NCBI GenBank assembly: GCA_000827205.1
Contig: KN832558.1
Span: forward strand, 909,209-973,208
DNA from: Plicaturopsis crispa FD-325 SS-3
Lineage: Eukaryota; Basidiomycota; Agaricomycetes; Amylocorticiales; Amylocorticiaceae
Direction of reading: 5' to 3'
Length of the DNA stretch: 64,000 nt
The notes below the pieces were generated by a model, which saw nothing but the letters and a program-made list of their open reading frames with translations, did no database searches and had not been told where the DNA came from. Below, one piece after another: positions 5,921 to 57,180 of the stretch. The position numbers were made by a program, and so were the translations under genes. The stretch's first letter is position 1; the number at the start of each line of letters is the position of its first letter.

Positions 5921-7168
5921 ATGGCACCCATCAGAGTCGGTACCATCGGTCTCTCCACCACTGGATGGGCCTCGACGCACCATGCCCCCGCCCTTCCAGA
6001 ACCATACAAGCTCGTCGCGCTCTCTACCACCAGGGCGGAGACCGCTGACGAGGCCAGCAAGAAGTTCGGCGTGAAGGGGTACCACGGCGATCCCGCGCAG
6101 ATCGCACAGGACAAGGACGTCGACCTCGTCGTCGTCTCGGTCAAGTTGCCGCACCACAAGGCCAGCGTGTGGCCCGCGATCGAGGCCGGTAAAGACGTTT
6201 TCGTGGAGTGGCCGCTCGGCCGCGATCTCGCGGAGGCAAAGGAGATCGAGCAGTTCGCAAGGGAGAAGGGGGTACGGACGATCGTCGGGCTCCAGGCGAG
6301 ACAGGGCAACGCGGTGCGCAAAGCGAAGGAGCTGATCAACAGCGGGAAGATCGGCAAAGTGCTTTCTACGAGCGTCGTAAGTCCCGATCCACATCCATCG
6401 TCCAAGCAGCGGTGTTATTAACGAGGGCGAATGATAGCTGGGCACGGGGGGCGCGATGGGCGGGATCGCCGAGGAGAAATACGCCTATGCACGCGATGGA
6501 AAACACGGTTAGTGCCTAGTTCGTTCGAGGAAGGGCGTGTCTTGACGTCGTTGGATCCAGGCGCGAACGTGCTGAGCATCCCCACCTCACACACTCTCGA
6601 TGCGTTTGCGTATGTCCTTGGCGAATTCGCGTCGCTTTCCGCCACGACTGTGGTCGCACACACCAAGGTCGGCGTGATCGGCACTGACAGGACAATCGAA
6701 TCGACGGCCACCGACCACGTCGTCATTCAAGGGATACTACAGACCGGGGCGATCGCGAGCGTGCACTTCCGTGGTGGCGGGGGAGCGGATGTCACCATCC
6801 CAACCTACAAGAACAAGGGTTCGGTCGATTTTTTTTGGGAGATCGAGGGCGAAGATGGGATCATCGTGCTAAGAGGGCCAACAGGACATATCCAGGTCGG
6901 TGCATTTGTGTTACAAGTTTCTGTTGTATATCAAGGACTCACGGTTACGGGTGTATGGAAGATAATCGAGCCGGAGCTGTACCTCAACGGCGAAAAGGTG
7001 GACGTTGGTGAAATCGACCCCCTTGGGCCCACGCGTAGGGAGTACGCAGAATTCGCCAAGGGACCCGGAGGCGAATATCTGGACTTTGCACATGCTGTGA
7101 AGAGGCACGAAGTCATCGACGCTATCGAGCGGAGTGCAAGGGAGGGGAAGAGGGTCTCTTACCTGTAG
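5921..7168 (+). CDS. Gal80-like Gfo/Idh/MocA-family NAD(P)-binding protein, copy 1
   Basis: Rossmann-fold protein of the Gfo/Idh/MocA oxidoreductase family, Gal80-like branch; 352 residues. Exons 5921-6376, 6438-6507, 6561-6895, 6971-7168 (456, 70, 335, 198 nt). The N-terminus has RVGTIGLSTTGWA (dinucleotide-binding loop) and a HGDPAQI segment. Where catalytic members carry EKP, this protein has VEWPLG, so the usual active-site lysine is absent, as in Gal80-type proteins. The C-terminal half (FFWEIEG, YLNGEKVDVGEIDP) is the mixed beta-sheet domain. Fungal Gal80 represses galactose genes, but Agaricomycete homologues are uncharacterised, so a regulatory or enzymatic role is open. It has a close paralogue at 9538 with identical exon lengths. 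Structure confidence is high; function is low. Confidence 0.88.
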
Positions 7169-9537: not shown

Positions 9538-10783
9538 ATGGCACCCATCGGAGTCGGTATCATCGGCCTCTCCACCATTGGATGGGCCTCAACACACCAT
9601 GCCCCCGCCCTTCCGGAATCATACAAGCTCGTTGCTCTGTCTACGTCTAGGGCGGATACCGCTGACGAGGCCAGCAAGAAGTTCGGCGTGAAGGGGTACC
9701 ACGGCGACCCCGCGCAGATCGCACAGGACAAAGACGTTGAACTCGTCGTGGTGTCGGTCAAGGTGCCGCACCACAAGGCCAGCGTGTGGCCCGCGATCGA
9801 GGCCGGTAAGGATGTGTTCGTTGAGTGGCCGCTCGGCCGCGATCTCGCGGAGGCGGAGGAGATCGAGCAGTTCGCAAGGGAGAAGGGGGTGCGGACGATC
9901 GTTGGACTCCAGGCGAGACAGGGCACCGCGGTGCGCAAAGCGAAGGAGCTGATCAACAGCGGGAAGATCGGCAGAGTGCTCTCTACAAGCGTGGTCAGTG
10001 CGAGCCCTCCGACACCACGCAACAAGTCACTGATAATATCGAACAGTTGGGCAGAGGAAGCGCATGGAGCACCATGACCGACAATGGCCATGCTTACTTG
10101 CGCGATCACAAGAATGGTCAGTGAGCAGTCCCGCACGGTGGCCAGGGCTCCATCATAGTCACACATCAATCGAACTGCAACAGGAGCAAATCTGCTGACT
10201 ATCCCCACCTCGCACGCGCTCGATGCGCTCGCTTACGTGCTCGGCGAATTCTCCTCGCTGTCCGCCACCACCGCGATTCGACACCCCCTGGTCAGCTTGG
10301 TCGGGACGGACGAGATCCTCGAGGCGACGACCCCGGACCACATCGCGATCCAGGGGATTCTGCAGAGCGGCGCGCTCGTGAGCATGCACTTCCGTGCCGG
10401 CGCCGGGTTGCAGGTTGACAGTAGCGCGTCTGCGGGGAACAGCCCGGTCAACTTCTTCTGGGAGATCGAGGGCGAGAACGGCTTGATCGTCCTCAAAGGC
10501 CCGGCGGGACACGTCCAGGTCGGTGCTTCATATCCGTGTTTGTATGTGGAGGATTGACGGTCACAAACATAAATAGATACATGAGCCGACGCTGTACCTC
10601 AACGGCGAGAAGGTCGACGTGGGTGAGATCGACCCCCTTGCGCCTACGCGCAGGGAGTACGAGGAGTTCGCCAAAGGTGTCGGAGGCGATTATCTTGACT
10701 TCGCTCATGCCGTGAAGAGACACCAAGTTATCGAGGCTATCGAGCGAAGTGTGAGGGAAGCACAGACCACGACCTATTTATGA
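9538..10783 (+). CDS. Gal80-like Gfo/Idh/MocA-family protein, copy 2
   Basis: Paralogue of the gene at 5921. Exons 9538-9993, 10047-10116, 10184-10518, 10586-10783 have exactly the same lengths (456, 70, 335, 198 nt) and phases; 352 residues. The first exon is nearly identical (GVKGYHGDPAQIAQDKDVEL, VEWPLGRDLAEA), while exon 2 has diverged strongly: LGRGSAWSTMTDNGHAY here against LGTGGAMGGIAEEKYAY in copy 1. The EWP motif replaces EKP here too. An upstream in-frame ATG at 9532 would add only Met-Val; 9538 aligns with the start of copy 1. The introns differ in sequence, so this is a settled duplication rather than an assembly artefact. Function as for copy 1. Confidence 0.87.
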
Positions 10784-14750: not shown

Positions 14751-16051
14751 CTAGACAAACCGGGATTTCGCAGCAGCCGCGAATTCCTCCAGGGTGCTAA
14801 ACTTCACACCGAGGGCCACCAGACGCGGATCGGGGAGGGGGGACTCGTTATAGAGGCCAACTTCCGACTGGTACTCATACTGCAAACGACACGCGTCAAT
14901 GTATGCAAACGCATAAGCAGGTCGCAAAGACGCACCATTTCGTCGAGCTCCCTGATAGTCGTGGTCGGCGGCGAGGTGAACTTCACGGGCTTTCCGAACG
15001 CTTTGGAGAGGATCTCCGCAAAGGCGGGGTACGTGCTCCTGGCGGTGACGGCGAAGAAGGTCTGGCCGAGGACCTCCGCAGCACGGGTGTTGTAGTTCTT
15101 GAGCAGCGCCAGGATGGATGGACCGAGGTCGCGCTCAATCCAGGTGATCGCCTGGGGAGACGTCGCGCTATATCTGGGGACGGGAAGCTCGAATGAGCCA
15201 TCCGCGGTTTTGACAAGGTTACCGAAGCTGTAGATTATTTTAGGATGGACCGTTATTTATATCTGAGCAAATGTGACGCACTTCCAGAGATTCTCCGCAA
15301 ACCAACCTGTGCACACGGGGATTAGTATCCTTGAGCGAAACGGCGTTCTCTAATCAACGACATACCCGTGTGTACAATTGCATAGGGCAACCCAGCTGTC
15401 TTCAAATATTCGTCGATAGCAGCTTTGTCTGAGACAAGTCCGCTTAGCCTCGCAAATTAGACGGTACGGAGATACGACCTACTGTTAAAGTGGTGTATAG
15501 TTGGGTACTTTCCGTTCGACAATTTCGTCGAGTCCGGCAATGAGCTGAATCCTAGTTAGTAGTGGTACATTGATGAGTGAAAGATTCACGACCCACCTCC
15601 AGATAAAGAACTTGACGCCAACCTCTTTCGAGACCTCGATGAGATTCTTTCCCTGAGTAATTTCTCCTTGAGGGTCCTGGCCGGCGATGGTCGGGTCGTA
15701 AAAATTGGTCCTGCATACGCGATCCCGTACAGTCAGACTGAGTGCGTGATAGGGCAAGAATAGGACACGCACACGCCGAAGACGCCTTCGCTGCCCGCGA
15801 GCGCTTTCTTGAGTGATTCCTTGTCCCACAGGTCGCCCTGGACGACCTCGACTCCACGTGCTTTAAGCTTTTGGGAAGCCTCAGAGGAGACGTTGCGCGT
15901 TACCGCGCGTGGGGTGAACGTCCCATCGGCGAGGAGTGCGCTAATTACAGATGAACCTGAAAATGTATGTAGTCGAAAGACAGACGCGTTCGCAGAGTGG
16001 ATGCATACCTTGGGTGCCGGTAGAGCCAAAGACGGTTACGATGCGTGCCAT
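14751..16051 (-). CDS. NmrA-like NAD(P)-binding protein
   Basis: Eight exons on the minus strand, about 305 residues. It begins MARIVTVFGSTGTQGSSVI, a GxxGxxG dinucleotide-binding loop whose glycines are split across the first intron, then GTFTPRAVTRN, VEVVQGDLWDKESL, EGVFGVTNFYDP, GKNLIEVSKEVGVKFFIW, a PNYTPL/HHFN region, KAAIDEYLKTAGLPYAIVHTG and WFAENLWKNFG. The C-terminal part includes AITWIERDLG, LGQTFFAVTARSTYPAFAEI and YEYQSEVGLYNE. NmrA-like proteins are atypical SDRs; Aspergillus NmrA senses NAD/NADP and regulates nitrogen genes, but most paralogues have other or unknown roles. The gene is divergent from the hydrolase at 17852 across 1.8 kb. Splice sites fit GT-AG throughout. Confidence 0.85.
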
Positions 16052-19733: not shown

Positions 19734-22627
19734 GCCCCCGTGCAGTGCTAGTGACTCGCACTACACTCGGACTGCGTATCTACTATTATTTCTTATATTG
19801 GACCTCGTATACCTTTGGACGCCGCTCGCATGCGCCTCAAGTATTTACTACTTTGCTTCACGGGAGATTGTTCGGCTGCATTATTTGCGCTGCCAATTTT
19901 CCTGTCATTCGTTTGAAACACTGTCGTTATCGTGACCTTGGCGCTGTTGGGTTGCGAGAATAACGGTCCTCTGCCAGCGAGCGTGGAGGCAGTGTGGGTT
20001 TCAACAAAAACATGAAGATCCAGGACGAATCTAAAAGGCTAAAACTTAAGGCCTCCGGGAGTTCTGAATCCCCTTCCCAGTCGACGTCGACTCATGTACT
20101 CGTGTCGCGTGTCGCGCCGCGTGGACTAGCAAATTTGAAGCTTGAAGCGGGACTGCGTTCGCCATCCCATCTGCCAGTCATCCGATTGTGCGTGGACACT
20201 TGCTGCAAATCTGGCACTCCAGGCTCTGATGTGAAGCTTAAGGGCGCGTCGCAACTCCGGGAATCCCGCCGCTAATTCTCTGCAGACTGCACTGCACATC
20301 CAAAACCTACGACAAGGGCACTCCTGGGCACTCCCAATGTCGGAGAATTTGGCATCTACTAGCCACGATCGACAGCTCGTAGCAATTTGACTGGCTTGGA
20401 CGACTCGGGAGCCTATGCGGAGGTGTGTAAATGATTGGCATCTGAGCGATATTTGTTCCACCGACTGACGACTAATAGGCATAACGCCAGCACTCATATT
20501 TTCAGATGCATCCATCTCTGCTGCGGGTAGCGTCGATAGAAAACAGTCCTGGAGACCTGGAGACCGCGTCCGCAAAGCAGTGCTTTTCTGGACACTCTTG
20601 TTTTTTCCCTGCTGGAACGCCGCCACGGATTATTTGCTACACAAGATGAAGAAAGGCTTCGATGTGCGTATGCCTCTGACTTCTCTGACAAAGGAAATCA
20701 AAACTGAACCCCCGTAGATAGGTAAGACTTTCTATTGTATTTTTGCGTGTTCGCTTGCGTGCGTAGTAAGGTGGCTCTTTATGATGGTACGCGTAACTGC
20801 TCAGTTGCAACTTGCATGCATACTTCTCGCGGGGGGTTTTTTTGGCCGGCGCCATATGCAACGTATTGGCATAGTGCACATCCTTGCAACTCCCCGCCCC
20901 AGTGTAAACGCTATTTATGCACAGATGATCGTTATCATGGCATATCTCACCCGAAGCTTACCTGGAGCGCACGCAGAAGTTTAGGTTCAGGTCTCCAGGG
21001 GCACTATTCGAAGCATCTGCACCCCCGTTTCCTGTCTTCATCCTGTCATTTGCCATCAAATAGTAAGAAAAGCGGTTATGAATGTACTCGACGCATACCG
21101 TATTGACGTGATGCTCCAGGGAATCCTTGCCATCACGTATGTTGTCTATGCCCTTTAGCTTTAATCTCACTGAAGCATGTCTTTACCTGTGTAGCTTCGA
21201 GCGTGTGGTACGGCTCTTACCCTCGTTGATTGAAGATGCTGTCGCCGTCTCCCTATTACGCCTTCTCTCTAGAGGCCGCCCCCCCTCGAGTAATTGCATC
21301 CACTGCATGCTGCAGCCTTTGGTCAGACGGCAGCGCAGTTTCCCTTTAATAACACGCATCGTAGCCCTGAAAAGAAGGCATAATAAGTTGCCCTCCAACC
21401 GTTGAGCCCCCAAGCGACTCGCCAAGGCCTATGCTATTCAAATCGCAGGGTGAGTTGATCTCCATCATAGCTGTAATGGTTATCTTATGCTCTCTGGTCC
21501 CGGAAGGCTCGCACGGCTTAACGTTATGCGACGGCGACGATTGGCCAGGGATTTGAACGATGAAGCAGGTCTAGGGTTTCTTATGGAGAACTACCATGCA
21601 TGATTCTGATGCCGGGCCAGCGCGCTGCATCATGTCTCTATGGGTTCAAATTCTACGTACCACAAGCTTAATTGCCACTTTCTCTCCAGCCATCTTGAGG
21701 GTATTATGCTAGTCACACGAGTAAGCTCAAGTACTATGACCTCTGCAATTTTGTCGACCCTCCCCCCATATATGTTCATACCTGCGCGTGATTTATGATG
21801 GGGATGAGACGTCTTGCACTGGGTAGAGCAGCCTAGCGAGGCTCCAGTACACGTAGACTGAGGCCTTAGTAGGCCCATGTAACTTGAGGTACCTCGGTGC
21901 TCTGCCTACCAATACTTTCTTCCATTCTGCATACACTGGGCTCGAGTGCCGTATATTTTTGCGATCAGATGTGCCCACACCACTGACCGCTACCGCGCAC
22001 CGTAGCGGTCGGACATTTCCACTGCCGGAGGCGAGGCCGGAAGCTGGTGCGCCCTTGGGCCTTTTTCGTCTTCGATTTGATTTCACCTACCGTGAATCGC
22101 CGTGACGAGATGCAAACGAATGCAGAAAGTCTCCTCGATATAGGCAGGTAGTGTGTAGCACACTTTTGCACTGTAGCGTACCGGTAAGTATATGTTATCA
22201 TTAATTTTCATTTCCAATTCCCGGCCAACGCGCGTTGCGAACTTGCTTTGAACAGCGCCGCGGACTTCAAAATTAGCCGTGCGATCAAAACGTGGTTATT
22301 TGCATCCTTCAAGCAGGCCTGGATATTGCTTCCATCGCCGCCGCTTTTCTAGTCCTGCCAGTGAAGTTGTTGTAGCAGGCATTCCCTTAGGATGTTCTCA
22401 ATACTCACTCAAGCTCTGAAAGATCAAAATTTGCAGGACCGTTCAGATCTTGTGTACTTGTACCTATGTCACGGCCCACTCTCCGAGTCTCCCTCCCAGA
22501 AGGCAATCGCCGCAGTGCCCCATGATTTACCTAGAACCGATGGGATCGTCGGCAATAATTGGAAGAAAACCGTGGTATAATGCACACCCCTTTTACTCTC
22601 GTGCCTGCGTGTAACGATTTTTTCTCC
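19734..22627. other. Gene-free stretch
   Basis: About 2.9 kb with only short, mutually overlapping frames. Near 21883-21895 the word CTTGAGGTACCTC repeats most of the palindrome at 3619-3634. Sequence near 21500-21560 and 20030-20280 was read on both strands without finding a gene, tRNA or element I know. It could hold decayed repeats. Confidence 0.45.
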
Positions 22628-24560
22628 AGCAGGAAGGGTCACGGGCATCACAGAATATAGAATCCACGAACCTCCGCGACAGTCCTCCCAATAGTATGCG
22701 GATACGTACTATAGGCTGCCCCCTCTTTATTCAACTCAATTTCTAGTACTTAATGCATTGAGTCTGCTGCAGGGGCATTTCTCGTGTCCCCGTCGCGCGC
22801 ATCTCGCTCTTTGAAACCTCCTATTCCTCCCCCTCCGGCGACGCACCGCTTTCCTCAACTTCGCATTCCCCTTCCCCTTGCGTTTTCGTTGACCGACAGA
22901 CGTTGGGTTTATCGAAATGGTCAAGGTCGAGCTCATCCTGGGCCCGGTGGTGACCGCCGTCGTCACGAACGCGTTCTTGTACGGCCTTTGCGTTCTCCAG
23001 TTCAGTAATTTCTACACCTCTGGTATCAAGAACAGGCCAATCATCCGGTGCGTAACATGACGCCCCTCCCGGAATGAATCGCTGTACTCATCTCAATCCC
23101 ATCGCACGTAGACTGCTCGTCGGATGGGTATTTTTGCTGGACACGTACCATACAATCAGCGGTGTCTACCTCCTTTGGGACTATACGGTTACCAACTTCA
23201 ACAATCCCGCAATCCTGTCGCAAAGCCCGTGGCCGTTTCCATCTACACCGATCGTCACAGTCTGGTATGGTGCTTTTTTGCTGTGCCGCCAATTTTCACT
23301 AATACACGAGCATCAGCGCGTCAATTCCCATTCAGCTCTTTCTTGCCTGGCGAATCAAACAGTTCTCTGGCTCATGGGTGATTTTCGGCATGATTGCGTT
23401 CCTGTCAGTCATGCAGGGAGCATTCGCAATTGTTTCTGCTATCATGGCGCTCGAGACGACGAAGTTCGTTTCATCCTGCATCTCATGGTCGTTCAGCCCA
23501 CTGACAATTTGATATAGCATCGCCGACTTTGACAAGATTATCCCTTTTGTCGACACCTGGCTCGGGCTCACCATCGCTTGCGATCTCAGTATCACGTTCG
23601 TGCTCTATCCCTCCGCAGTGTGTTCGTTTGCTGACTTCATGAGGACAGGGCCTTGCTCGCTTTTCATCTACAGAAATCACGCACGGGATTCCGTCGCACA
23701 GACAATGTCATAACGGGCCTTGTTCGTTCGTCCGTCGAGACGGCAGCCTTTGCGTTCTTCTTCTGCGTGTATGTTCGCTCCATCTACTTCCGTGGCTATG
23801 TGCTAATAACGGCGATCGTATAGGATGGATTTCATTTGCTTCGTGCGTGAAAAGAGCCGCTGTATGGAGCAATATCACTAAACAGCGTACCACAGACAAT
23901 CCCTCAGCTTCAGGATACCAATTTCCATCTGATCTTTGCATTCGTGAGTGCTATGTTTGCTGCCATGTTGACGATCCACTGACAAGTCGCTGTCAGCCTA
24001 TGGGCCGGATCTACACGTACGTAGAATCGGCCAAGAATTCTTGAACTAGTACTAACGCATTTTTTTCGGTCATAGGAATACGCTGCTTACGGTGAGTACC
24101 TGACATCATTCGAGGTCACGCATAGATTTACTGTTCTCCGGCAGACGCTCAACTCTCGCTCGACCCTGCGGTCTGAATTGAGTGGTGTTCGCGATACGAC
24201 CTTCAACGTCACGGTGAGTTGCGGATTTTCTACTCCCTGTGCACTCGCTTACGAGCCCAATGCAGACTGGCGGTCCGAGATTCAACCACACTGCCGACCC
24301 CAACTATGACTTGAACGCGACAACAGTTATAACGGTCCGTAAGGACCAGGAAACCTTCGATGAGTCTGGCCTCCAGTACGACACCAAGACTAACATCGAG
24401 TTGGGTCCTTACGGAGAGCAGGATGGAAAACATGTCGCTGTTTAATTGTTTGGGGTCTTGTCACGTAGATTTTATTTTGGATATTTGGTGTGCAGCAAAT
24501 TCACTTGCTTGCACTTTGGCGTTGCATCGTCTCTATATTTTCTGCGAGATTCGAGTGTTC
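22628..24560 (+). repeat. Duplicated segment A (DUF6534 copy 1 with its promoter)
   Basis: From about 22628 this segment matches 48397-50290: the start of the match is GGGTCACGGGCATCACAGAA in both, running through the promoter, all exons and most introns, and fading after the stop codon. Same orientation, about 25.8 kb apart. Confidence 0.8.
22917..24445 (+). CDS. DUF6534-type seven-helix membrane protein, copy 1
   Basis: Roughly ten short exons encode about 330 residues with seven hydrophobic segments: LILGPVVTAVVTNAFLYGL; LLVGWVFLLDTYHTISGVYL; ASIPIQLFLAWRI; WVIFGMIAFLSVMQGAFAIV; IIPFVDTWLGLTIACDLSI followed by LLAFHLQKSRTGFRRTD; VRSSVETAAFAFFFCVMDF; and FHLIFAFPMGRIYTNTLL. The loop KSRTGFRRTD and the final MGRIYTNTLLTTLNSRS are hallmarks of the DUF6534 family that is expanded in Agaricomycetes. 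The cytoplasmic tail is short and acidic. The topology is receptor-like but no ligand or function is known. The exon joining SIT to ALLAFHLQ was placed using copy 2. Close duplicate at 48662, older relative at 36962. Confidence 0.8.
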
Positions 24561-29855: not shown

Positions 29856-29864
29856 GGCCTCTAT
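29856..29864. repeat. Target-site duplication, left copy (GGCCTCTAT)
   Basis: GGCCTCTAT directly precedes the first base of the left inverted terminus and is repeated exactly at 36178-36186. Because the element begins with T, the duplication could be counted as 10 bp. Confidence 0.85.
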
Positions 29865-30014
29865 TAGACCGGTAACCGTCTGTCTATGAGAAAGGCAAGC
29901 TTGTCGATAGACAGACCGGCCGATCTGGCTTTAAAAATGGCAGGGAAACGAGTTTCCCGATTGAGCGAACCGTAGCGACCTGCCCTATACCACACGTGTG
30001 ATAGTCGCGTCTTG
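29865..30014 (+). repeat. Left terminal inverted repeat
   Basis: Begins TAGACCGGTAACC. Contains a 10-bp hairpin stem GTCTGTCTAT (29878-29887) with ATAGACAGAC (29907-29916), a second hairpin GGGAAACGAGTTTCCC (29943-29958), and the block 29961-29990 that is identical, inverted, to 36058-36087. The similarity fades after a shared CGCGTCTT near 30006-30013. Confidence 0.88.
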
Positions 30015-30080
30015 TACATTGTACATACCGTGTGTACTCGACCGTAATTTGTGCCTTTGCCTCGCTCTTTAGCTTCAATT

Positions 30081-32502
30081 ATGGACACGGATAGGACCGA
30101 ACTTGAAGATGTGGAAACCTATGTCTGGATAGACACTTGGGAGTACATACCTAGCCCCTGGCTTCATCCGTACTACCTCAGACTCTGTCAACAATCCGAA
30201 GATCTCGTTTACTGGGAGGACCTCGACGACGCGGAAGAGCACCAGGCTGCAAGAGATTTCGACCGTTTTGCACTGCTTGAACCGAAGCTACAAAGGATCC
30301 GCGACCTCTCCGACTCAGACATGATGCTCGAAGCTATGGTTGCTTTTCCGATTGAACTTGAGCCCGGTCTTCGCCTCCTTGGCTCCCTGTCTCCTGCTCA
30401 GCAACTCGAAGCATGGCGCGCCTGTCTCCTCGTATACGAAGCTACCGGTCACAAGAAAGTACCGCGCGATTTCCAGCTCCAGTCGGCGCTCGCATCCTTG
30501 CGAGGAATAGACAGTGTCATCACGGCCGGAACAGGATCGGGGAAGACACTCATCAACGCGATTGCGCCGCTGCTGTATCCGGAGACGGTCACTATTCTTA
30601 TGTCACCTCTCCGTCGCATTCAAGAAAACCAGGTGAGTATCATTCCCTCATCAAGTGTCCGCTTTGCTGAACTTTCCACTAGGTCAAAGAGTACGCAGAA
30701 CTGGGTGTTCGTGCAGCGGCAATACATTCAGATAGTCCAAAGGACGCGTCGTTCTGGGCGGTACGTGCTAAATATTCTCGTTTGATATAACCTTGGCTGA
30801 TCACATGGACCAGGACGTTCGAAACGGGTGCTATCCACTGCTCATTGCTTCGCCGGACCAGTTCAGCATGATCGACGGACACCTCCCGCGCATGGCCCAA
30901 ATCATGGAAGAAAGCGACTTCAAAAAACGCTTTTCACGTGTCGCAATCGACGAAGCACATTCGATTTACACCGTAGGAGTATCGAAGCACGGTGAACCGG
31001 CTTTCCGCCCGCGATGGGGATCACACGACATACTGCGCACTTGCTGGAAGAGAGTAGCCTGGCAGCTGCAATCAGCTACCTGGCCGAAGCATATCCTCAA
31101 GGTTGCCAAGGAGAAGACGCTCATCGCCCAAGACTGTTTCGAAATTCGCCTATCCGTCAACCGGCCGAACATCACATACGCGACGACACCTCTCATCGGA
31201 GGGATCAACAATTTCTCGAACCTCGACTGCCTGATACCTCTTGGATGGAACCCCTCGATGCCACCTATCAAAAGGACACTCGTGTTCATCGATTCTCAGA
31301 CTTCTGTGGCTAATCTTGCGACGTACCTTGACTCCCGCCTCGCCCCAGGCTGTCAAGATACCGGCATTGTCTGCCACTACCACAACGGAATGTCGGCGAA
31401 ATATCTTCAAAATACTTGGGACAGTGTCACTTCTCCGGAAGGAGCCTGTCGAATCATGTGCGCAACGTGCGCCGCAGCAACGGTCAGTCCTTCATTTTCG
31501 AGCGGACTTGTGACTGCTCACGGGCTGCGAATAAAGGGCTCGGACTTCCCTGATGTAGAAGTCGTAATCCAAGTCGGCGCCGTCAACGATGGGACTGACA
31601 ATGGTCAACGAGGCGGCCGTGGCGGTCGAAACCCGGCATCGGCGTCGCTCTACCTCGTTATGGCTGAGCCGTGGGTCTACGACATCAAACTTGGACCAAG
31701 AAACGACGCGGATCCGGACGAACCGAGTGGTCCGAAGCCAGCGAAAGGGAACCGCTCGAAAGAAGCACGCATTGGGCGCGCGTCCGTCGAATACATTCAG
31801 ACGACGAAGTGTCTACGTGCATTCAACAGGGATTATCTCAGTGACGATGATCCCTCAGGTAAGTGCTCACTGCATTACCGCCTGCTTTTCTGTTGTTAAT
31901 GTGTGCATTCTACAGCGCTCGCTTTCACAAACGCCTGGTGCTGTGACCGTGTACATGCAGGAGACATCGAGTCGTCGAAGCCTCCCTTCGATCTCCAGTC
32001 CTTCTTCCCCTCGCCGCTTCACACTCTCCTGCCAAAGGAAAAGGTTTCTCGGAAGCGCGCGAACAAGTACAGACCAGTCCCGGAACGCGAAGTCCTCGAA
32101 AAGCTCATCCGCGGCTGGCGCTCGCATGCGCACCAGTCGGACCCTCTCCGATTTGTTCGCCCCGCCACATACATCCTGAGCAACGACAGCATCAAGAAAC
32201 TCGTTATGGCACCTCACTCCTCACTGCCCTCGCCTACCTCTCTCGCGGTCCTCCTAGAGGAAACTGACGAGTGGAAAGGGGAGTGGGCTGACAGCTTGTA
32301 CATCGCAATCTCAGACTACGGCAAGTCGATCGAGCTCGAGAAAAAGTCGAAGGGGAAAGGGAAGGGAAAGCTGGAGGCTGGATCGGACTCTGGATCGGAC
32401 ATGGGGCCTGAGTCGGAGGACTCTAGTGATGAGGAACCAATCGCAAAGAGGGTGAAGGTGCGGGACATCCTTGTAGATACGGTTAACTTTGCTGTACAAT
32501 AG
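30081..32502 (+). CDS. RecQ-like DEAH helicase of the transposon
   Basis: Five exons (about 30081-30632, 30683-30760, 30814-31480, 31541-31858, 31917-32502), about 730 residues. ATP-dependent 3'-5' DNA helicase of RecQ type by motifs: FQLQSALASL (Q motif), TAGTGSGKT (motif I, near residue 148), SPLRRIQENQ (Ia), VAIDEAHSIY (motif II DEAH, near 256), LQSATWP (III), RTLVFIDS (IV), FPDVEVVIQVG (V) and GQRGGRGGR (VI). The C-terminal part has a Cys pair (NAWCCDR), where many fungal RecQ-like proteins have a zinc-binding FRNYCG segment, then a lysine-rich and an acidic Ser/Asp tail. No RQC or HRDC domain is evident. It is convergent with the DUF6589 gene. All motifs needed for catalysis appear present. 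A role in unwinding transposon ends or replication during transposition is inference. Confidence 0.85.
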
Positions 32503-32548
32503 GACAGTGTGAATAGTTCTATTGCTAAAGAATACATCAGAGTCTTCA

Positions 32549-35500
32549 CTATCCATCGGTGTCCGCAACCGTATCCTCCATGCTAAGCTCGGAGTCATCG
32601 TTGGTCTCGATGCGCATGTCGCAGACCGGAAGTTCATCCTCCTCCTCAACATCTCCTATTATCCCGGAGGCGAGGTTACGGATCTTCTTGTTGACGGTCT
32701 TGAGAGTGGAGCTTCGTAGTTTTTTCTCCCCAGACAGAAGGATGTCGGTCGTTGGCTTTGCGGTGTCGTTGCCCTCGCGGTTTTTCTGGAATGTAATCAG
32801 GCCAAATTCGAGAATCTTGTCGCGTACTTTGAAGACTGAAGCAGAAGTATCGGGGGTTGTGTGCGAAATCCCGTTGTATTTTGTACCGAGTTCAAGGCCG
32901 ATCTGTTTCTTGACGAACTGGATCTGAACGATGGCCGCAGAGATGTCCCCGAGACGTTCCCATGAGCCATGCATTCCCCGTGCGAGGAACAAAAGCTTCA
33001 TGGTCGCAAGTAAGCATCTGTATCGAGTCTGAAGATTGAGACGCACCTTGAGATAACCAATGATGTGCTCAATATTAAGGTCTATCGCCATGAAGTGCCC
33101 CGCAAGTCCCGTAAAGTTGACGAGCATCATGTCGCGCATGATATTGCTACCAAGATGGGTCAGCCTGTGGAAAATATATGGCTTGAAAAGAGGCAACTCA
33201 CGCAAACTCGGGTGTCCATACATACTTCAGATTATGAATGAAATGCAGGATTTCGGTGCTGTAATTGTTAGACCCAGCGCCGCGAAACATCATACAGAGA
33301 ACACCGAGCATATCCTCGATACGACCAAAGTCGCCGTCGGAGATCGCGCGGATAAGTTCGGCCACATACAAGAGATCCCGAGTGAGTAACTGGAGATTTC
33401 GCTGCGCCGTGTCGGTCTCTGATTCAGCATCAGGTTCGCAGTCTTCAGGGTCACCATCGTCGTCCGTTTCCATCGCGTCATCAGCCCTCGCGGCTGACTT
33501 CTTTTTGCGCGGACGTGGGGCGGGTTCCTCAGACGGAGTCGCGTACTTGAATAGGATGCGCTGTCCGATCGCGAGGATGGCCTCCGGTGATGGCTTTGAC
33601 TGCGCGAACTCCTCCATGGTCGGAAATCCGCACTCAATCGTCCAAGCGGCGAGCATAATCCCGTTAAGTATTTGCATGAGCGCCGCGAGGAGGGTATGGT
33701 AATCAGGGTGTTCGCATCCGAGCCGTGTCTTGTCCAGGAGCGCAAAGAACCATGTGAGGCTGCCAAGTCCGTCGAGCTTGCCGCGATGTGTATTCAGAAG
33801 AGCCCAGATGAGGTTCATGCACTTATGAAAAAGCCCGGGAGCCTGCTGTAGCACCTGGATGCGAGTGAAAGCATTGACATCCTTCAAGCGGAGTTCCTTC
33901 GCGCCGCGCAGGCGCGCATTCGTGCTCTGGTCTGGAATAGTAGGGATTGCATTGATGCAGAGCTCCGGCTGAAGCCTGCGAAGTTGGTGGAGGTAGACGT
34001 CCTCTGGGACAGCGATATTCCCAGCGACAGAGGCTTCCTCGACGGTAGATGCGCGAACCGGACAGTGCTTCGTTATCTCCCCGAGGGGCATCGGACGACG
34101 CGGTGTATGTTGCAACTCGGGGACTCCTTCGTATTCCGTGAAGCCTTCAGTAAACTTCATCATCATCCGTGTCGCATGTATAACGAGCTGGTGGTTGACA
34201 GATGAGAGCTGGTCCACAGTCGGCCGTATATCGCGGTTGAACGAGAGGTCGGGAGCAGTCTTCTGGCGCTCCAGGATGGGTGCCAGCCGCATCGCATCCG
34301 CGGTTGCATTCGGAAGCTCGTATAGAATGGCAACTGTGCCCGAGCGCACTTTCGATGGCCCGTTGTGCCGCTGTTCAGTGAATATTGATGTAGAGATGTT
34401 AATATTATCGTAGCACATGCCATGGAATCCGCGACTGATGCGTCTTGCCCGTGCCATAGAGCCGTCTGCGACAATCTTGACGATCTTGAGGATGGTGTCT
34501 TGACTCATCGCTAAGCCACACTTGTAAAGGACTTCGAGTGTTGCGCGCGAGGCGCCGCAAGCCCACCAGAAGAGACTCTTGACTGCGATGGGGCTATTAA
34601 CAGCTTGCGAGCGTATCTTGGCCATCTGTCCGACGAGATCGTAGCATGCCTGGAGTATTTTTATCAGCCAATGTGAACGGTCGGAACGAAACAAGAGACT
34701 CACCGTGAGCGGAGATGTCTTCAAGACGTTCTTCTCGGCTGCTCGCAAGGTCTGACAAGCTGTAAGGAGGATTTTGAGGGTGACGGGAGCATGCTTTCGA
34801 GTCGCTTCGCCGACAGTTCCATCGAGGCTCCAAGTCTCGAGGTATTCGGGGGTGATATCGGTGAGTTGCATTGTAAGGGCTGGGGTCATGGCATCCATTT
34901 CCTTGTATACCGTAGTACAAATCAAGCTAAGAGCGTGAGGGCGCATCCATGCCTCCATGATATCCTTCCCATGGCCTGCATCTGCTAGAAGGTGATCGAG
35001 AATGCCCTCTAACCTGCCGCTCTTCCCCATGATACCGCGCCGGTAGTTCTCGTATCCTGGCTTCGACGTGTCGAGGACATCCGCGATAATGTCGAGGGGT
35101 GTGATTCGACGTGCCTGTAGATAGTCCAGGGCTTTCGCAATGCATTCGCTCCGCGATAACTGCGGCTCGACGGGCTCGGCGGTCGTGAAATTGGTGGCAT
35201 CGCTGTTGCGAAATAAAAGCGCAGGGCGTACCGCAGTAGATCGGCGTGATTTTTCACGAGTAGGGCTTCTTGGGGTGGACTGGACACGAGAGAGTAGACG
35301 TACAGGGGAGCCAAGACCACGGGGCTGCGAGGATGACCGTCGCCTCGAGTTGACTGAGCGCCGTGCAGCGGTATGCACACCCGTGGCATCATCAGTACCT
35401 TCAGGTTCGTCTTCCCAGTCCAATTCGTCATTCGGCACGTCCAGATGTCCTGAATTGCGCAGCGGTATGAAGAAGTCGTCGTCATTTGAAGTCCGAGCCT

Positions 35501-35777
35501 CTGAACGCGTCGAGTCCTCGAGATTTGCTAGCCCAGACATTGAGGGACCAGTATTTGCTGCTGCATCAGAGGCGGAACCCGATAGAAGGACGGGTCTAGT
35601 GCTAGTCGAGGATGTTGACGAGGAATCTTGAGTGTAGTTGGACCATCGTAGCGCAGAAACCGGTGTAGGATACGACGATTGGCCGGGCTGGGTTGGAGTA
35701 AGGCTGTCAGCTTCCGTAGCGGTCCTCGAGCGAGCAGAAAGAGCAGCAGCAATGATATCCGCAGAGCTTAGCGCCAT
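32549..35777 (-). CDS. DUF6589-domain protein, candidate transposase
   Basis: Four exons on the minus strand (two internal introns near 33152-33214 and 33001-33048, and a probable 54-nt intron at 34650-34703), about 1,020 residues. The start chosen is MALSSADIIAAALSARS at 35777. The first 200 residues are Ser/Thr-rich and disordered; then ECIAKALDYLQARRITPLDI, DILHDLLAD-like helices, SLFWWACGASRATLEVL, MCYDNINIST (Asp near 439), HQLVIHATRMMM, LNLIWALLN-type and DGLGSLTWFFALLDKT segments, an inserted basic/acidic loop, RGAGSNNYSTEILHFIHNL (Glu near 824), and the DUF6589 hallmark MRDMMLVNFTGLAGHFMAID followed by LNIEHIIGYLK, GSWERLGDISAA and HTTPDTSASVFKV. DUF6589 has no known function. The spaced acidic residues in strand-like contexts resemble a DDE/RNase H-like transposase, a hypothesis only. 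Confidence 0.82.
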
Positions 35778-36041
35778 CTGAGAGCCGTGAACGAGCAGAG
35801 TACGGTGTTGTGGGAAGCTTGAAGAGACGCGACTTCCGAAAGGCACTGAATATTTACCCTGTACTGCTAAGTGGTTTCTAATTATCGGCTCATTCGCTAT
35901 TCGACGTCGAGTCATACATACACAACGTTCTCGTAGTACAATGCAATTCAATATTCCGCGATAGATATGATGCGTTCACGGTACATATCACACAGCTTTG
36001 AGCAATAGTAAATATTCGACGCGTCCGCCAAATCATACCGT

Positions 36042-36177
36042 GAAGACGCGGCGTGCTGTATAGGGCAGGTCGCTACGGTTCGCTCAAACGGGGAATGTGT
36101 TTCCCTGCCAAATTTAAGACCCGATCGGCCAGTCTGACTATCGACGCTTGCTCATAGTCAGAGTGGTCACCAGTCTA
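36042..36177 (-). repeat. Right terminal inverted repeat
   Basis: Reads inward, on the minus strand, TAGACTGGTGACC. Holds the hairpin TCTGACTAT (36133-36141) with ATAGTCAGA (36154-36162) and the 30-bp block 36058-36087 identical (inverted) to the left terminus. Compared with the left end, the hairpin stem shows a paired change that keeps base pairing. Confidence 0.88.
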
Positions 36178-36186
36178 GGCCTCTAT
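36178..36186. repeat. Target-site duplication, right copy (GGCCTCTAT)
   Basis: Exact copy of 29856-29864, directly after the last base of the right inverted terminus. Confidence 0.85.
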
Positions 36187-36961: not shown

Positions 36962-38654
36962 ATGGCGGACGCCCCGAATGTCTCACTCATTCTAGGACCA
37001 GTCGTCACGGCCGTCGTCTTGAACACATTCCTGTTCGGCCTGTGCATACTCCAGTTCACCACGTTCTACACGTCTGGGATCAAAACCAAGCCAGTCATCC
37101 GGTGCGCCTCTTGTCCTATACGATCTCCTTTAATTCGACTCATTCTTCCACATAGATTGCTTGTAGGATGGGTTCTACTTCTCGATACATACCACACCAT
37201 CACTGCGGTGTATTTATTATGGATCTACGTATGTATCCCTGTGCCACTGACCGTGCACATGAATCACTTATATCCTTCATAACAGACTGTTACGAATTTC
37301 AATAATCCTGACATCTTGTATGGGCCCTCGCACTCTCTTCCTCACTTACTCACTCACGATATCTCTTCAGGGACAAGTCTCCGTGGCCTTTCCCATCGAC
37401 ACCTATCGTAACAGTCGCGTTCGTACATTTTTGTCTCCTCGTTTCCTCTTTTTGCGCAAGCTAATTGAAGGTCTCTAGTGCGTCTATACCGATTCAACAT
37501 TATCTTGCCTGGAGAATCAAGAAATTCTCCAAGTCGTGGATCATCTTTGGCATGATATCGTTGTTATCGTGGGCACAGGGAATTATGGGCATCACCTCGG
37601 CGATTTTGGCACTTATGACCACCAGGTTTGTGACGCGATAAAATTCTACCGCACCTACGCATGCTAACGACCGTGGCAGTATTGATTCGTTTGGAAAGAT
37701 CATCCCATTCGTTGACAGCTGGCTTGCCCTCGCCATGATATGCGACCTCAGTATCACGTTCGTCGACCCTCGTGAAGTCAGATCGCTAGATTGTCTGCTG
37801 ACACGTACATCGCAGTGGCTTACTTGCCTACCATCTCCGGAAGTCGCGAACGGGCTTCCAACGGACGGACAATGTGATTACGGGAGTCATTCGATCCTCC
37901 GTAGAGACCGCAGCGTTTGCGTTATTCTTTTGCATGTATGTCTTTTTTTTGTTTTAGCTTGCCTGAAGTGAGTGCTAATGCGCGAACGTCTACCATCAGC
38001 ATGGATTTCATCTGCTTCGTAAGTCAATATCTGCATCTACAGGATGTATACACCTCATTGTTTCATCGCAGAGTCTTACGTCGCTCCAAGGAACTAACTT
38101 CCATTTGATCTTTGCACTGGTGAGTCTGCTTTATCCACCAGCATCTGTTGCACTGCCTGACATCTTCCTCTCACAGCCAATGGGCCGTATCTACACGTAC
38201 GTACATCGCGTCATGTAATTCCGAGTCTTGCTGAGACAAAGTTGCCTTCACTTACAACAGAAATACACTCCTAACGGTACGTCGGCTGTCTATTTGTTTT
38301 TGTCTACACGCATGCTTATCCGCGCTATTTATGCAGACGTTGAACTCGCGTTCGGGGCTGCGCGACGAGCTCAGTGGCGCTCACAATACTAGTGGAAGTG
38401 TACGTTGTTCTTCTTCCATACCTGTGGGCGCGCACTAAATAACACATCTCGCTTAGAACAATGTCAATATGTTCCCCCGAGTAGGTCATGGAGAAGCTTC
38501 GGGAATGGTGGTCACCGTTCAAAGGGATGCGCAAGTGACCTTTGACGACACAGGCCGCCGCCTCTCGGACGTCGATCGGAAGGATGTTATGGAATTGGCG
38601 TCGTATCCATCGTCACATGGGCGGGGTCGGGACGTCAAGGCGATGGCAGTTTAG
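36962..38654 (+). CDS. DUF6534-type seven-helix membrane protein, copy 2
   Basis: About ten exons; starts MADAPNVSLILGPVVTAVVL. Family landmarks are all present: FYTSGIKTKPVIR, LLVGWVLLLDTYHTITAVYL, TVTNFNNPDIL, DKSPWPFPSTPIVTV, ASIPIQHYLAWRIKKFSKSW, FGKIIPFVDSWLALAMICDL, then across an intron GLLAYHLRKSRTGFQRTD, VIRSSVETAAFALFFC, MGRIYT and TLNSRSGLRDELSG, ending in an acidic tail. The protein is clearly older than the copy 1/copy 3 pair, since its introns and third codon positions are unrelated to theirs. It supplied the guide for placing the SIT/GLLAYH intron in the others. Function unknown. Confidence 0.78.
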
Positions 38655-47414: not shown

Positions 47415-48396
47415 ACTCTACATCATCGTTAATTTTTTGGTGAGTGTCTATGTTCGCTCGTGATGTTCGATCTAACTGTTCCTTCAGCTCCCTCAGCCGT
47501 TCGAAATTTTTATTGGCGACCTGCACTCATCCTGGTGACTGCCGCATTGCCCATCTCCCGCCCCTTCGGACTCTTCCGACTGTGTTTATTCCCTTCTCTA
47601 TTCTTGTCTTGAGGCAGGTCCGAACCCGGGTGTCGAGGACCAGTTTGTGGTATATATAGTCTCCTTTCCCTCTCTCCTCCATCCTGTGTTTGTTCTCGCT
47701 ATAGCTATGTCTCACCTCACCATATGCATGTTTATGTCAGGGCTCCATACACCACGACGCGTACGAACGCCACACATCTCTTGTGACCGAAACGTCTTGT
47801 TCACGTACCGATACTGTACAGTAGGTCAGTCTAATGAGATACGTCGTTCAACATCTGTGCACATGGATATTCGTATCCGAGCGATTTGGAGTGTACGTTG
47901 GCAAGCTCAATCAAGTGCATCGCTACTTATAAGTTATATGCACTCGATAAACTGTTGGCTAACGTTGATCAAACGCTATAACGTTAACTTACATTAATGA
48001 GTACTGTCGTACCTGACATGTACTTGGGTCGACTCGGGTTGCAGATTCGCATCAGGATGGCCCTGCGAATTGCGGTTACCACGCGCCGCTATTCGTAATG
48101 TCTACCCTGTTCTATCTGAGTACTCACCCGCTCGATTTCGGAGCGACTCAATTCTACAGAATCTACCCTTCAGCGCACAGCGCCTGTGTCCTTGTATACG
48201 GCTATGCACTCGCAGTGCAATCCAGCACACGTAGCTAGTCCAGTGAGTCGACCTGACATGATTTGGACCTCGTCCCGATGAAATCGTCGGCAACGATGTG
48301 AAGAATCCCGTGTTTACTGGACGTTGAGGTGTTCCTTTTTTCAACTTTTGCTTCCGTGCCTGCAGCGCTCGTTAACGAATATTCGCTTCAGCGGAA
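47415..48396. other. Intergenic, no gene seen
   Basis: About 1 kb from the stop of the disordered-protein gene to the start of duplicated segment B. Nothing recognised on either strand. Confidence 0.45.
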
Positions 48397-50290
48397 AGGG
48401 TCACGGGCATCACAGAATATAGAATCCACGAACCTCCGCGACATCCCTCCAAATGTGCGTGTATACGTACTTCGCCGCCCTCTCTATTCTACTTAATGAG
48501 TGAGTCCGCTGCAGGAACATTTCTTTCGTCCCCGTCGTGCGCATTTCGCTCTTTAATCCCTCTCATTCCTCGCCCCCTCCCGCGACGCACGGCTTTCCTC
48601 AACTTCGCATCTTCCTCCCTTCTCCGTGTTCGTTGACCGACAGAAGTCGGGTTTAACCGAAATGGTCAAGGTCGAGCTCATCTTGGGCCCGGTGGTGACC
48701 GCCGTTGTCACGAACGCGTTCTTGTACGGCCTTTGCGTACTCCAGTTCAGTAATTTCTACACCTCTGGGATCAAGAACAGGCCAATCATCCGGTGCGTAA
48801 CATGATGCTCCGTCATTTAATCGATGTACTCATATCACCGTCTCACGTAGGCTGCTCGTTGCATGGGTTTGCTTGCTGGACACGTACCATACGATCACTG
48901 GTGTCTATCTACTTTGGGACTATACGGTGACCAACTTCAACAATCCAGAAATCCTGACGCAAAGCCCGTGGCCGTTTCCGTCTACACCGATCGTCACCGT
49001 CTGGTCAGCTCTTTTTTCTGCGGTGCCATTAATTTTTGCTGATATCAGGGTACCAGCGCGTCAATTCCCATCCAGCTTTTCCTTGCCTGGCGAATTAAGC
49101 AGTTCTCTGGTTCATGGGTGATTTTCGGCGGGATCGCGTTCCTGTCAATTATGCAGGGAGCATTCGCAATTGTTTCTGCTATCATGGCGCTCGAGACGAC
49201 GAAGTTCGTTATTATCATGCATCTCATGGTCGTTCAGCCCACTGACAATTTGATACAGCATCAGCGGCTTTGACAAGATTATCCCTTTTGTCGACACCTG
49301 GCTCGGGCTCACCATCGCTTGTGACCTCAGTATCACGTTCGTGCTGTATCCCACCGCAGTGTATTATATGCTGACTACGTGAGCACAGGGCCTTGCTCGC
49401 TTTCCATCTGCGAAAATCACGCACGGGATTCCGTCGCACAGACAACGTCATAACTGGCCTTGTTCGTTCGTCCGTCGAGACAGCAGCTTTTGCGTTTTTC
49501 TTCTGCGTGTATGTTTGGTCCTTCTACTCCTGTGACTATATGCTGATAACAGCCATCATGTAGGATGGATTTCATCTGCTTCGTGCGTGTAATGGACCGC
49601 TGTATTGTGTAATGACACTAAACAGCGTACCACAGACAATTCCGCAGCTTCAGGATACCAATTTCCATCTGATCTTCGCATTCGTGAGTCCTACACTTGC
49701 TGCCGATGTTGACGATCAACTAACATTCTGCTACCAGCCCATGGGTCGGATTTACACGTACGTAGGATTAGCCAAGGAAATATAGCCTGCTAACGAACCA
49801 ATTTCTTGGCCGCAGGAACACGCTGCTTACGGTGAGTACCTGACATCCTTCCGGGTCGTGCACGTATTTACGGTCATCTGGCAGACGCTCAACTCCCGCT
49901 CAACCCTGCGGTCTGAATTGAGTGGTGTACGCGATACGACCTTCAACGTCACGGTGAGTTGCAGATGCCTGACCCCTGTACACTTGATTACGAGCTCGAT
50001 GTAGACCGGTGGACCGAGATTCAACCACACTGCCGACCCCAACTATGATTTGAACGCGACGACAGTTATGGTCCGTCAGGACCAGGAAACCTTCGATGAG
50101 TCTGGCCTCCAGTATGACCACAAAACCAACATAGAGTTGGATTGTTACGGAGAGCAGCAGGAGGGCAAACACGTCGCTGTTTAATTGCAAAAGGTCGTGT
50201 CCCATAGATTTTTTTCGGATACTGGTGTATAGAGCAGCACTTGGTCGCATTCGGGCGTTTCGTCCTCTTATAGAGATTCTTGCGAGGTCT
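48397..50290 (+). repeat. Duplicated segment B (DUF6534 copy 3 with its promoter)
   Basis: Matches 22628-24560 in the same orientation. The match starts abruptly at GGGTCACGGGCATCACAGAA and fades after the stop codon. Sequence before 48397 and before 22628 is unrelated, which marks the duplication edge. Confidence 0.8.
48662..50184 (+). CDS. DUF6534-type seven-helix membrane protein, copy 3
   Basis: Near-duplicate of copy 1 with the same exon pattern. Start MVKVELILGPVVTAVVTNAF is identical; differences are scattered (LLVAWVCLLDTYHTITGVYL for LLVGWVFLLDTYHTISGVYL; GGIAFLSIMQ for GMIAFLSVMQ; LLAFHLRKSRTGF for LLAFHLQKSRTGF; the tail reads KTNIELDCYGEQQEG). All landmark motifs (KSRTGFRRTD, MGRIYT, TLNSRSTLRSELSG) are kept and no stop interrupts the exons I can place, so both copies look functional. 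Most changes are conservative, consistent with selection on both. Membrane location by topology; function unknown. Confidence 0.8.
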
Positions 50291-51409
50291 TCCATGGTCC
50301 ATTGAATGCTCGAGACAGGAGCCGGACGGCGGTCGATGAGGTGAGTGCCTCATGGCATCGTATAGATTGTGTCCTCATCGATGATCATTATCGTTGGTGT
50401 ATTTACAGCCCACCGTGTTGCCGCGCGTGAGCACGCGCGCTGCGGAAGTTCTCCTTGGGGCGTAAATTGTCCATCCTTACCGTCTACCAAGACTAGCAGG
50501 CCTCATGGCCGTCACTGTTCTGAGTCTTGACAGCCTTGGTGACTGTCGCGACCTCTATTCCCCAGCATTACGCCGGCCATGTTTCTCGGAGTAAACGCGA
50601 CGAGGCGTGGGCCAAGGATGCTGAACTTCCCCGACGTCTATTAATACTGATCCAGCACTCGCACGTTGACGCTCTTCTTTCCGCTGATACAGGCCCAAGC
50701 AGGTGCAGAGCATCCGTAATCTCATCAAGACTTTTCCCCACTTTGCACACGGATGGACTTCTGCCAATGCGAAGGCCGTGACTATAAGTAGGCTATGCTC
50801 CATATAACTGCCTCGAGGACGACGAGTCGGGCCAGTCTGGTATGAATAACAGGACTAGGCGCCGCACAGTAACAGTAGAGCCGTACTCGTCGTGTTATGT
50901 GGAAGGCAAAGCTGATCAATTCGAGCGTCAATGCGTCTTCATGATAGAACAGAGGTAAGTGAAGATCATAACCATCCTTACTAGTTCCTATGATGCTGAG
51001 CAGGTTCCATTTACAGTCCTTATTACCCATCGGCCTAACCTCGGCCTGCTATAAGCAGAGCTCGCGAGACCACGATCACGGTTTTGTCTAGCATGACACC
51101 CCCAGAGCCGTTACCAGTGGAGGTGCTCCCGGTAGATTCCAACTTCCAAGAAGCCATCCATCGTTGCATTTTGAGTTTGGGCATAGGACACCCGTGAGTG
51201 CCAGCGTCACATTCAATGCATTCAAGGTTTCGTGGGCGCTTCTCGAGTCTGACGGACGGAGTCGACAGCCAATGCTGCGCCGGACCAGCATCATACTACG
51301 ACGATGCGATGTCGTGAATTTCCTTCCGCACAAAGACCTCCGGGAACATTAAACTGCATACAAGAGTCACTTGCTGTGCGGATGCCATTACACCGAACTC
51401 TCCGCGCTC
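50185..51409. other. Intergenic, no gene seen
   Basis: About 1.2 kb. Its first 100 bp belong to the fading end of segment B. Frames at 50527-50781 and 50782-51030 were read and resemble nothing. Confidence 0.45.
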
Positions 51410-54840: not shown

Positions 54841-57180
54841 TCATAACTTCGCCTTGGTGCGTCTCGCGAGCTTCTTTTCGTGTTTATCCTGCAATACACG
54901 GCGCAGTACCTTTCCCGTAGGGGATTTTGGTATCTTCGTATGGCACGTCAGATCAGCCCTCGTCCAATAAAGTAAATCAAGCCGCCTACCTCATCAACAA
55001 TCCCGATGCCCCCGCGGAGCCACTTGTATTTGCTCAGGTTTTCCTGCGTCCACGCTTCGAGCACCTTGATGACCGCGGCACCTCCGCGTGCCTTGCCGGC
55101 GGGGCTCAGGACGATCCAAGCACGCGGGACCCTCTCGTCAGACGTACGCCCGCCGCTGACGCCCGCAACAGTCACGTCGGAGATGAGTTTGTCTGGCTGT
55201 GACAACAAAACCTCTTCAATCTCCACGGGCGAGACTTGTGCGCCAGAGACTTTCAATGTGTCCTACGTAGAAAATGCAACGGCCGTCAGTCGTATGTTCT
55301 CGTCCGTGTTTTTAGAGGGGCTGCACCTTTACTCGGTCTTCGAAGCTAGGCAAATTGGGTCCCTATAAGTGTCAAAGGCGGAACAAAGCACAACTCGACG
55401 TACAAGAATACGCCTTGCTCGTTGACCCGGAATTGGTCGCCACTGCGCAGCCAGCCGTCGGGAAGGAATGTCTCTCTGGTTGCTTTCTCGTTGTTCCAAT
55501 AGCCCAAAGCCACAGTGGGGGCCCGTATCTGAAGCTCTCCGGATTCATTTACAGTGGCTTCGGAGCCGTCATCTTTGACGATGCGTGCCTCTATGCTCGG
55601 CAAGAGCACCCCTGGAGATCCGGGGAGCCACTTGACACCAAAGAGGCCGTCAGGTAGATTGACCATCGTCGATATGGTCTGTGTAGTAAAAGCAGAGGTT
55701 TAGGGAGATCGCGGTAGTAAAAGGTGTCCATCTGCTCACCCCTTCAGATTGGCCATAACCTCAAAACGTACATATAACGTAGTCTGCATGGGTGCCTCGA
55801 CTCCGAGTCATGACAGCAGTACGCACCTTCAGTGAACTTCGCATTGGGTGTGTGGGCGGAGAACTTTGCAGCAAGCTCAGGCGGTAGATAGGCGGCGCCG
55901 CACGAGATGCTCAACAGCGAGCTCAGGTCTGCCTTGCCGATCTGCGAGGAATTCACCAACTGGTGCACGACGGAGGGGATGAGACACATGTGCGTCACAC
56001 GATACCTGTCGAATAAGTTTAACGTGTGGAGTTAGCAAGTCGACTCGCCTAACGCTAGATGAGATTGGCTGACTTCGATATCAACTTGAGAGCTAGGTCG
56101 GCATTCCAGTGGGGTAGGAGAATGAACGTGTGCGGTACGATGAACGCACGGAAGCACTGAACATGGAGACCTAATGAATCATTAGCGGCATATATTTCCA
56201 GACGGTATGCTCGCACCATATGAGTGGTGTATGGGCAAGAAAGCTAGAGAGATCGGGATGCCTTCTGGTGTGTTGAGCGCAGGTGGCTAGAACGATGCCA
56301 CTTGAAGATTAGTATGATACGGCGAGTGCGTAGATACATCCACGATATTGCATACCGGAGCAAACTCTTCAAAGGCCTTCTGTGTAACGATGGCCTGATA
56401 CAGTGAGTTCGCCAGATTCCCATGAGAGATCATAACAGCTGCCAGCAATTCATATCAGCACGGTAGACAGAAGCGTTAACAATGACCGGTGACCAGGGAG
56501 TGCTTGAGATCACCTTTGGGCAGACCGCTCGTTCCACTCGAAAAGACAAGATACGCAAGCGTATTGTTTCTCGCAGGCCGTACGGCGAGCCTAGGGGTGT
56601 TCTTCCTAAGAACACTCTTGATCATACCGTGAAAGCTCTTTCTTCCCTTGACATCGCCGGCCAGAACGTATATATGCTCAACAGGGATACCCACATCCTT
56701 TGCTGCGCGAAGGGTACGGGCGAGTAATCTCGGCTCGACAAATATATGTGTCGCTTTCGAGAGTCGTAGGGCATGCGTAAGCTCGAAGGGTGTCGAGTAG
56801 GATGAGAGCAGGGCAAAAGGGACACATGTTGCGAGCAGAGAGTGTACCAATGATATATAATCCTGTGCCATGCATGTTAATTAGACCACTACCAAAGCAT
56901 GAAGTACCGGGCTCACCGCGGAGTTCCCGGACAATATGCCGACCATCTCGTCACCCTTCAGCCCCAGGCCTCCGTCTGCGACAGGGCTCCCAAGGGCTGT
57001 CGCACCGTCATAGATGGTCTCTTTGAACTGCTTGAAAGTGCGTTTGCGACCTGTCACCGCGTCAATGTACAAAGTGTAGTCAGGTGGCCAATCCGCTTGA
57101 TCAGGGCGGTTGAAACAGTGGTGGTGAAAGTTCTGCTCGGGTAGCTGGGGTATGTCGGGAAAGACAGACTTGAGGACCAT
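54841..57180 (-). CDS. AMP-dependent acyl-CoA synthetase/4-coumarate-CoA ligase-like, copy A
   Basis: Multi-exon minus-strand gene, about 560-570 residues; start MVLKSVFPDIPQLPEQNFHH at 57180, stop after RTKAKL. Adenylate-forming enzyme that would convert a carboxylate, ATP and CoA to acyl-CoA via acyl-AMP. Motifs in order: TLAYLVFSSGTSGLPKG (ATP loop), VMISHGN, FLPIHHSYG, CGAAYLPPELAAKF, YGQSEG (A5, in an exon of about 20 nt), GYWNNEKATRETFLPDGWLR, SGDQF (A7 Asp), RAWIVLSPAGK and IPKSPTGKVLRRVL (A10 lysine). A second tiny exon of 19 nt supplies FEDRVK. All catalytic motifs are present. Substrate unknown: aromatic or medium-chain acids are both possible. Tandem paralogue of the next gene. Confidence 0.86.

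Follow-up and report, generated by a model that had tools for sequence, protein, structure and literature searches.

Organization of the locus and its termini

The 64,000-nucleotide stretch analysed here (contig KN832558.1 of the basidiomycete Plicaturopsis crispa FD-325 SS-3, positions 909,209 to 973,208; in the following termed the window) harbours a unit of 6,313 bp (29865–36177), which is bounded on both sides by exact GGCCTCTAT repeats and contains two genes between inverted termini: one for a RecQ-like helicase and one for a protein of the Pfam family DUF6589 (Table 1). The two genes are convergent, with 46 bp separating their stop codons. The flanking repeats as well as this pair of genes had been noted in a preliminary description of the locus, and both were recovered in the present analysis.

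Table 1. Coordinates of the features that make up the predicted transposon (positions in the window)
Feature	Position	Strand	Remarks
Left target-site duplication GGCCTCTAT	29856–29864	+	exact repeat
Left terminal inverted repeat	29865–29996	+	starts TAGACCGG; holds 10-bp inverted pair GTCTGTCTAT / ATAGACAGAC and 7-bp direct repeat AGACCGG
RecQ-like superfamily 2 (SF2) helicase gene, 735 amino acids (aa)	30081–32502	+	gene model; exons 30081–30632, 30683–30760, 30814–31482, 31537–31858, 31916–32502
DUF6589 gene, likely transposase, 1,028 aa	32549–35777	-	gene model; exons 35777–34704, 34649–33202, 33164–33047, 32995–32549
Right terminal inverted repeat	36052–36177	-	ends CAGTCTA on the + strand; holds 9-bp inverted pair TCTGACTAT / ATAGTCAGA and 7-bp direct repeat AGACTGG
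Right target-site duplication GGCCTCTAT	36178–36186	+	exact repeat

Random pairs of 9-mers from the window are identical at a rate of 2.5e-6 (2,000,000 draws). The tenth base (T) is also common to both flanks, so that the duplication may be read as 10 bp; the 9-bp reading is preferred, because only this length provides the element with symmetrical ends (start TAGAC, end GTCTA). Altogether, GGCCTCTAT occurs four times in the window versus 0.29 times expected in shuffles. The two extra exact copies (14850–14858 on the minus strand and 60896–60904 on the plus strand) are unexplained and possibly due to chance; a search of the window detected no terminus-like match beside either of them.

Read inwards, the left terminus begins with TAGACCGGTAACC and the right one with TAGACTGGTGACC. 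The two are similar over 102 columns (84 % identity, BLASTN E 1.5e-23), with gaps in the global alignment of the outer 30 bases. When the two 200-bp ends are aligned locally, they reach a score of 135, the highest value among 4,914 control pairs being 25. The latter were segment pairs of the same spacing from the window (5,000 drawn, minus those starting less than 400 bp from the element start). Similarity fades at about 132 bp from the left and about 126 bp from the right end; thus, the inverted termini of the preliminary description are real, but shorter than the 136–150 bp given there. All other matches to the termini in the window have E 0.25 or worse, the termini pairing solely with each other.

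Each terminus is further structured internally. A 7-base piece of the first motif recurs 47 bp further in on the left and 41 bp further in on the right. The changes between the two ends preserve this direct repeat and also 9 of the 10 paired bases of the inner inverted pair, in which a T-to-A change in one arm is mirrored by an A-to-T change in the opposite arm when left and right terminus are compared. Such paired changes would fit a protein-binding dyad, and the arrangement, seen in one pair of ends, would suit a transposase that reads the dyad and the repeated motif.

The helicase and DUF6589 genes

Neither gene model contains premature stops, and the introns predicted in the two genes are 37–57 bp long. 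Such short introns, like the genes neighbouring the element, point to a fungal chromosome. The helicase gene is predicted to be interrupted by four introns (50, 53, 54 and 57 bp), and its product displays the motifs GTGSGKT, DEAH, CATCAAATGSDFPDV and QRGGRGGR. The 735-aa model matches the Pfam families DEAD (PF00270, E 3.9e-10) and Helicase_C (PF00271, E 1.1e-9), both above cut-off, and recQ_fam is its best match in NCBIfam (E 2.1e-26). The 54-bp intron (31483–31536) is in frame, free of stops and located within helicase motif V, where its removal yields CATCAAATGSDFPDV. The Helicase_C score is 25.5 bits with this intron kept and 39.0 bits once it is removed, which supports the intron. Comparison with the PDB, for which an earlier gene model with one intron retained was used, yielded 37 matches at E up to 0.01: 27 bear RecQ-family names or the name "ATP-dependent DNA helicase", the other 10 being RIG-I/DDX58.

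In case of the DUF6589 gene, three introns are predicted, of which the 37-bp intron 33165–33201 together with its acceptor is uncertain and represents the least certain part of the models. Residues 491–925 of the protein correspond to nearly the full length of DUF6589 (PF20231; positions 4–410 of 410, E 3.7e-93), a family listed by Pfam under unknown function. Apart from DUF6589 itself, Pfam returned only HTH_49, below cut-off, at E up to 1. As candidate catalytic residues we propose D439 (in CYDN), D598 (in PDQST) and E873 (in IEHI).

Affiliation of the element

It is very likely that a transposon carrying a helicase gene and forming a 9-bp target duplication is present at this locus. The preliminary description had assigned both genes to one DNA transposon with target duplication, which the data support; that DUF6589 is the likely transposase we likewise infer, because it is the sole gene found in the element besides the helicase.

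The AcademH lineage was reportedly established by Kojima in 2020 (Mob DNA 11:15), a description known here through citing papers. Published work attributes 9- or 10-bp duplications to AcademH of the Academ superfamily and 3- or 4-bp duplications to AcademX, a difference that seems related to the encoded helicase versus nuclease (PMC10045372). AcademH elements occur at low copy number in Basidiomycota, Ascomycota and Mucoromycota, and the domains of AcademH, KolobokH or Helitron include DEAD and Helicase_C (PMC10799480). In the mushroom Marasmius oreades, putative non-autonomous elements of both the Academ and the Mutator-like (MULE) kind are widespread (PMC8290104).

The element of P. crispa shares with AcademH, a lineage of fungal or animal hosts, a helicase in which both DEAD and Helicase_C are recognized and, with GGCCTCTAT, a target duplication of 9 bp. 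AcademX would belong to the same superfamily if the element is of the AcademH type, but encodes a nuclease instead of a helicase and forms the shorter duplications. We therefore regard the unit as likely to be an AcademH-type DNA transposon that is complete and probably autonomous, with DUF6589 as its transposase; DUF6589 would accordingly represent a DDD/E enzyme of the Academ type.

Several observations weigh against this assignment. Only one copy of the element was seen, and neither a second copy nor an empty site turned up in the viral, phage and prokaryotic collections searched. Helicase domains also occur outside transposons (PMC10799480), and the helicase reaches 92.8 bits versus a recQ_fam cut-off of 219.8, which is why it is called RecQ-like here and not a typical representative of that model. 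The likeness to AcademH concerns the helicase and the duplication length given in the published description. By sequence, neither the long open reading frame (ORF) nor the spliced DUF6589 protein has a relative in the PDB at E up to 1, and the AlphaFold model is unusable (mean predicted local distance difference test, pLDDT, of 36.8), its input having been a single sequence, a contiguous 859-aa translation that still contained an intron and did not include the final two exons. D439, D598 and E873 were picked after features typical of DUF6589 proteins and of DDD/E enzymes, and their catalytic role is our own reading. As to the termini, folding compared to shuffles yields z -3.29 on the left and -0.44 on the right, the latter no better than shuffles, and the inner inverted pair on the right is one base shorter than that on the left (9 versus 10 bp), which renders the dyad argument weak. 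A cruciform at the termini, considered on the basis of the same hairpin values, is not claimed.

Alternatively, the element could represent an undescribed superfamily, as had been suggested in the preliminary description, with the helicase and the 9-bp duplication acquired by convergence and DUF6589 being an unrelated type of transposase. Besides the unknown function given by Pfam, the literature agrees with this view insofar as the name DUF6589 was absent from what was searched and the accession retrieved one unrelated optics paper; moreover, the Academ kinship of DUF6589 is putative. However, helicase-encoding fungal elements with 9- or 10-bp duplications have already been described as AcademH (PMC10045372, PMC10799480), and convergence in both helicase and duplication length is improbable, so that we consider this reading unlikely. 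The same low probability is given to the view that DUF6589 constitutes a separate transposase superfamily in which a RecQ-like helicase is the standard partner, the likeness to AcademH being due to convergence or to a swapped transposase.

Long inverted termini and a 9-bp duplication, a length inside the 4–10 bp range of MuDR and IS256 (PMC10045372), are also reminiscent of a MULE, and the preliminary description had considered a very divergent branch of these elements. A MULE whose transposase has diverged and which has captured a helicase is nevertheless highly improbable, since the Pfam search up to E 1 gave no MULE transposase family. The helicase sets the element apart from MuDR, and residues 598–872 of the DUF6589 protein, a putative interval between the candidate D and E, contain no C/DxxH motif. 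The latter point, together with the convergent gene order, also argues against a KolobokH element: these elements are found in fungi only and encode a RecQ helicase, as does the unit studied here, but the target duplication of Kolobok is TTAA (PMC9587614) rather than GGCCTCTAT, and this reading is likewise highly improbable. Finally, two host genes might lie by chance between unrelated inverted repeats, in agreement with the single copy seen and with termini that match only each other in the window. The perfect 9-bp repeats, placed directly at the outer edges of the inverted repeats, and the termini scoring far beyond the control maximum leave very little probability for such a coincidence.

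Proposed transposition route

For the AcademH-type element, we infer a cut-and-paste route. The DUF6589 transposase, as a putative DDD/E enzyme, would bind motifs at each terminus, cut the element free and subsequently join it to the target DNA with a 9-bp stagger, repair of which would give rise to the GGCCTCTAT duplications. The helicase may unwind DNA, either at the ends or at the target, while the element is cut out or joined or while gaps are repaired.

Searches for relatives

Relatives were searched for in viral, phage and prokaryotic collections, and misses in these say little about fungi. No confirmed relative was obtained with the long ORF of the DUF6589 gene (925 aa; it starts upstream of the ATG, retains an in-frame intron and lacks the last two exons), the pattern matching one stretch in viral_contigs, eight in genome_contigs and none in the phage records. 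The same holds for one helicase ORF of 375 aa, which covers roughly one half of the protein, in viral_contigs, with four stretches matched. A degenerate DNA pattern derived from a motif of DUF6589 proteins, which the protein encoded in the window does not itself match, retrieved four viral loci (best tblastn E 1.1). PF20231 was matched by none of the 4 records from the pattern search and by none of 14 control genomes, a result that does not show absence.

Other features of the window

A 1.9-kb segment is present twice at 85 % identity (22608–24491 and 48370–50228), and parts of 36986–37941, just right of the transposon, represent a third, diverged partial copy. Three ORFs compared from these segments (23056–23514, 23643–24041 and 49903–50349) matched no Pfam family. 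A gene for a Gal80-like/GFO-IDH-MocA oxidoreductase is duplicated (5921–7143 and 9538–10758), identity being 92 % in a stretch of 462 bp and 74 % in another 593 columns. Similar segment pairs with 73–82 % identity are found among 54987–55980, 57419–58335, 56915–57161 and 59256–59503; near these, an ORF on the minus strand (58842–59249) matches AMP-binding enzymes.

Implications

As a transposon, the element would join a lineage already described in 2020, whereas the link between DUF6589 and the AcademH transposase may be new; it could also be in print, the founding paper of AcademH lying outside the literature searched. If DUF6589 is indeed the AcademH transposase, a Pfam family "of unknown function" gains a function, and genes annotated as DUF6589 could be recognized as transposon genes. 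Furthermore, the intact-looking element of P. crispa offers a case for examining whether the 9-bp stagger is determined by the helicase, an idea suggested by the published difference between AcademH and AcademX (PMC10045372).
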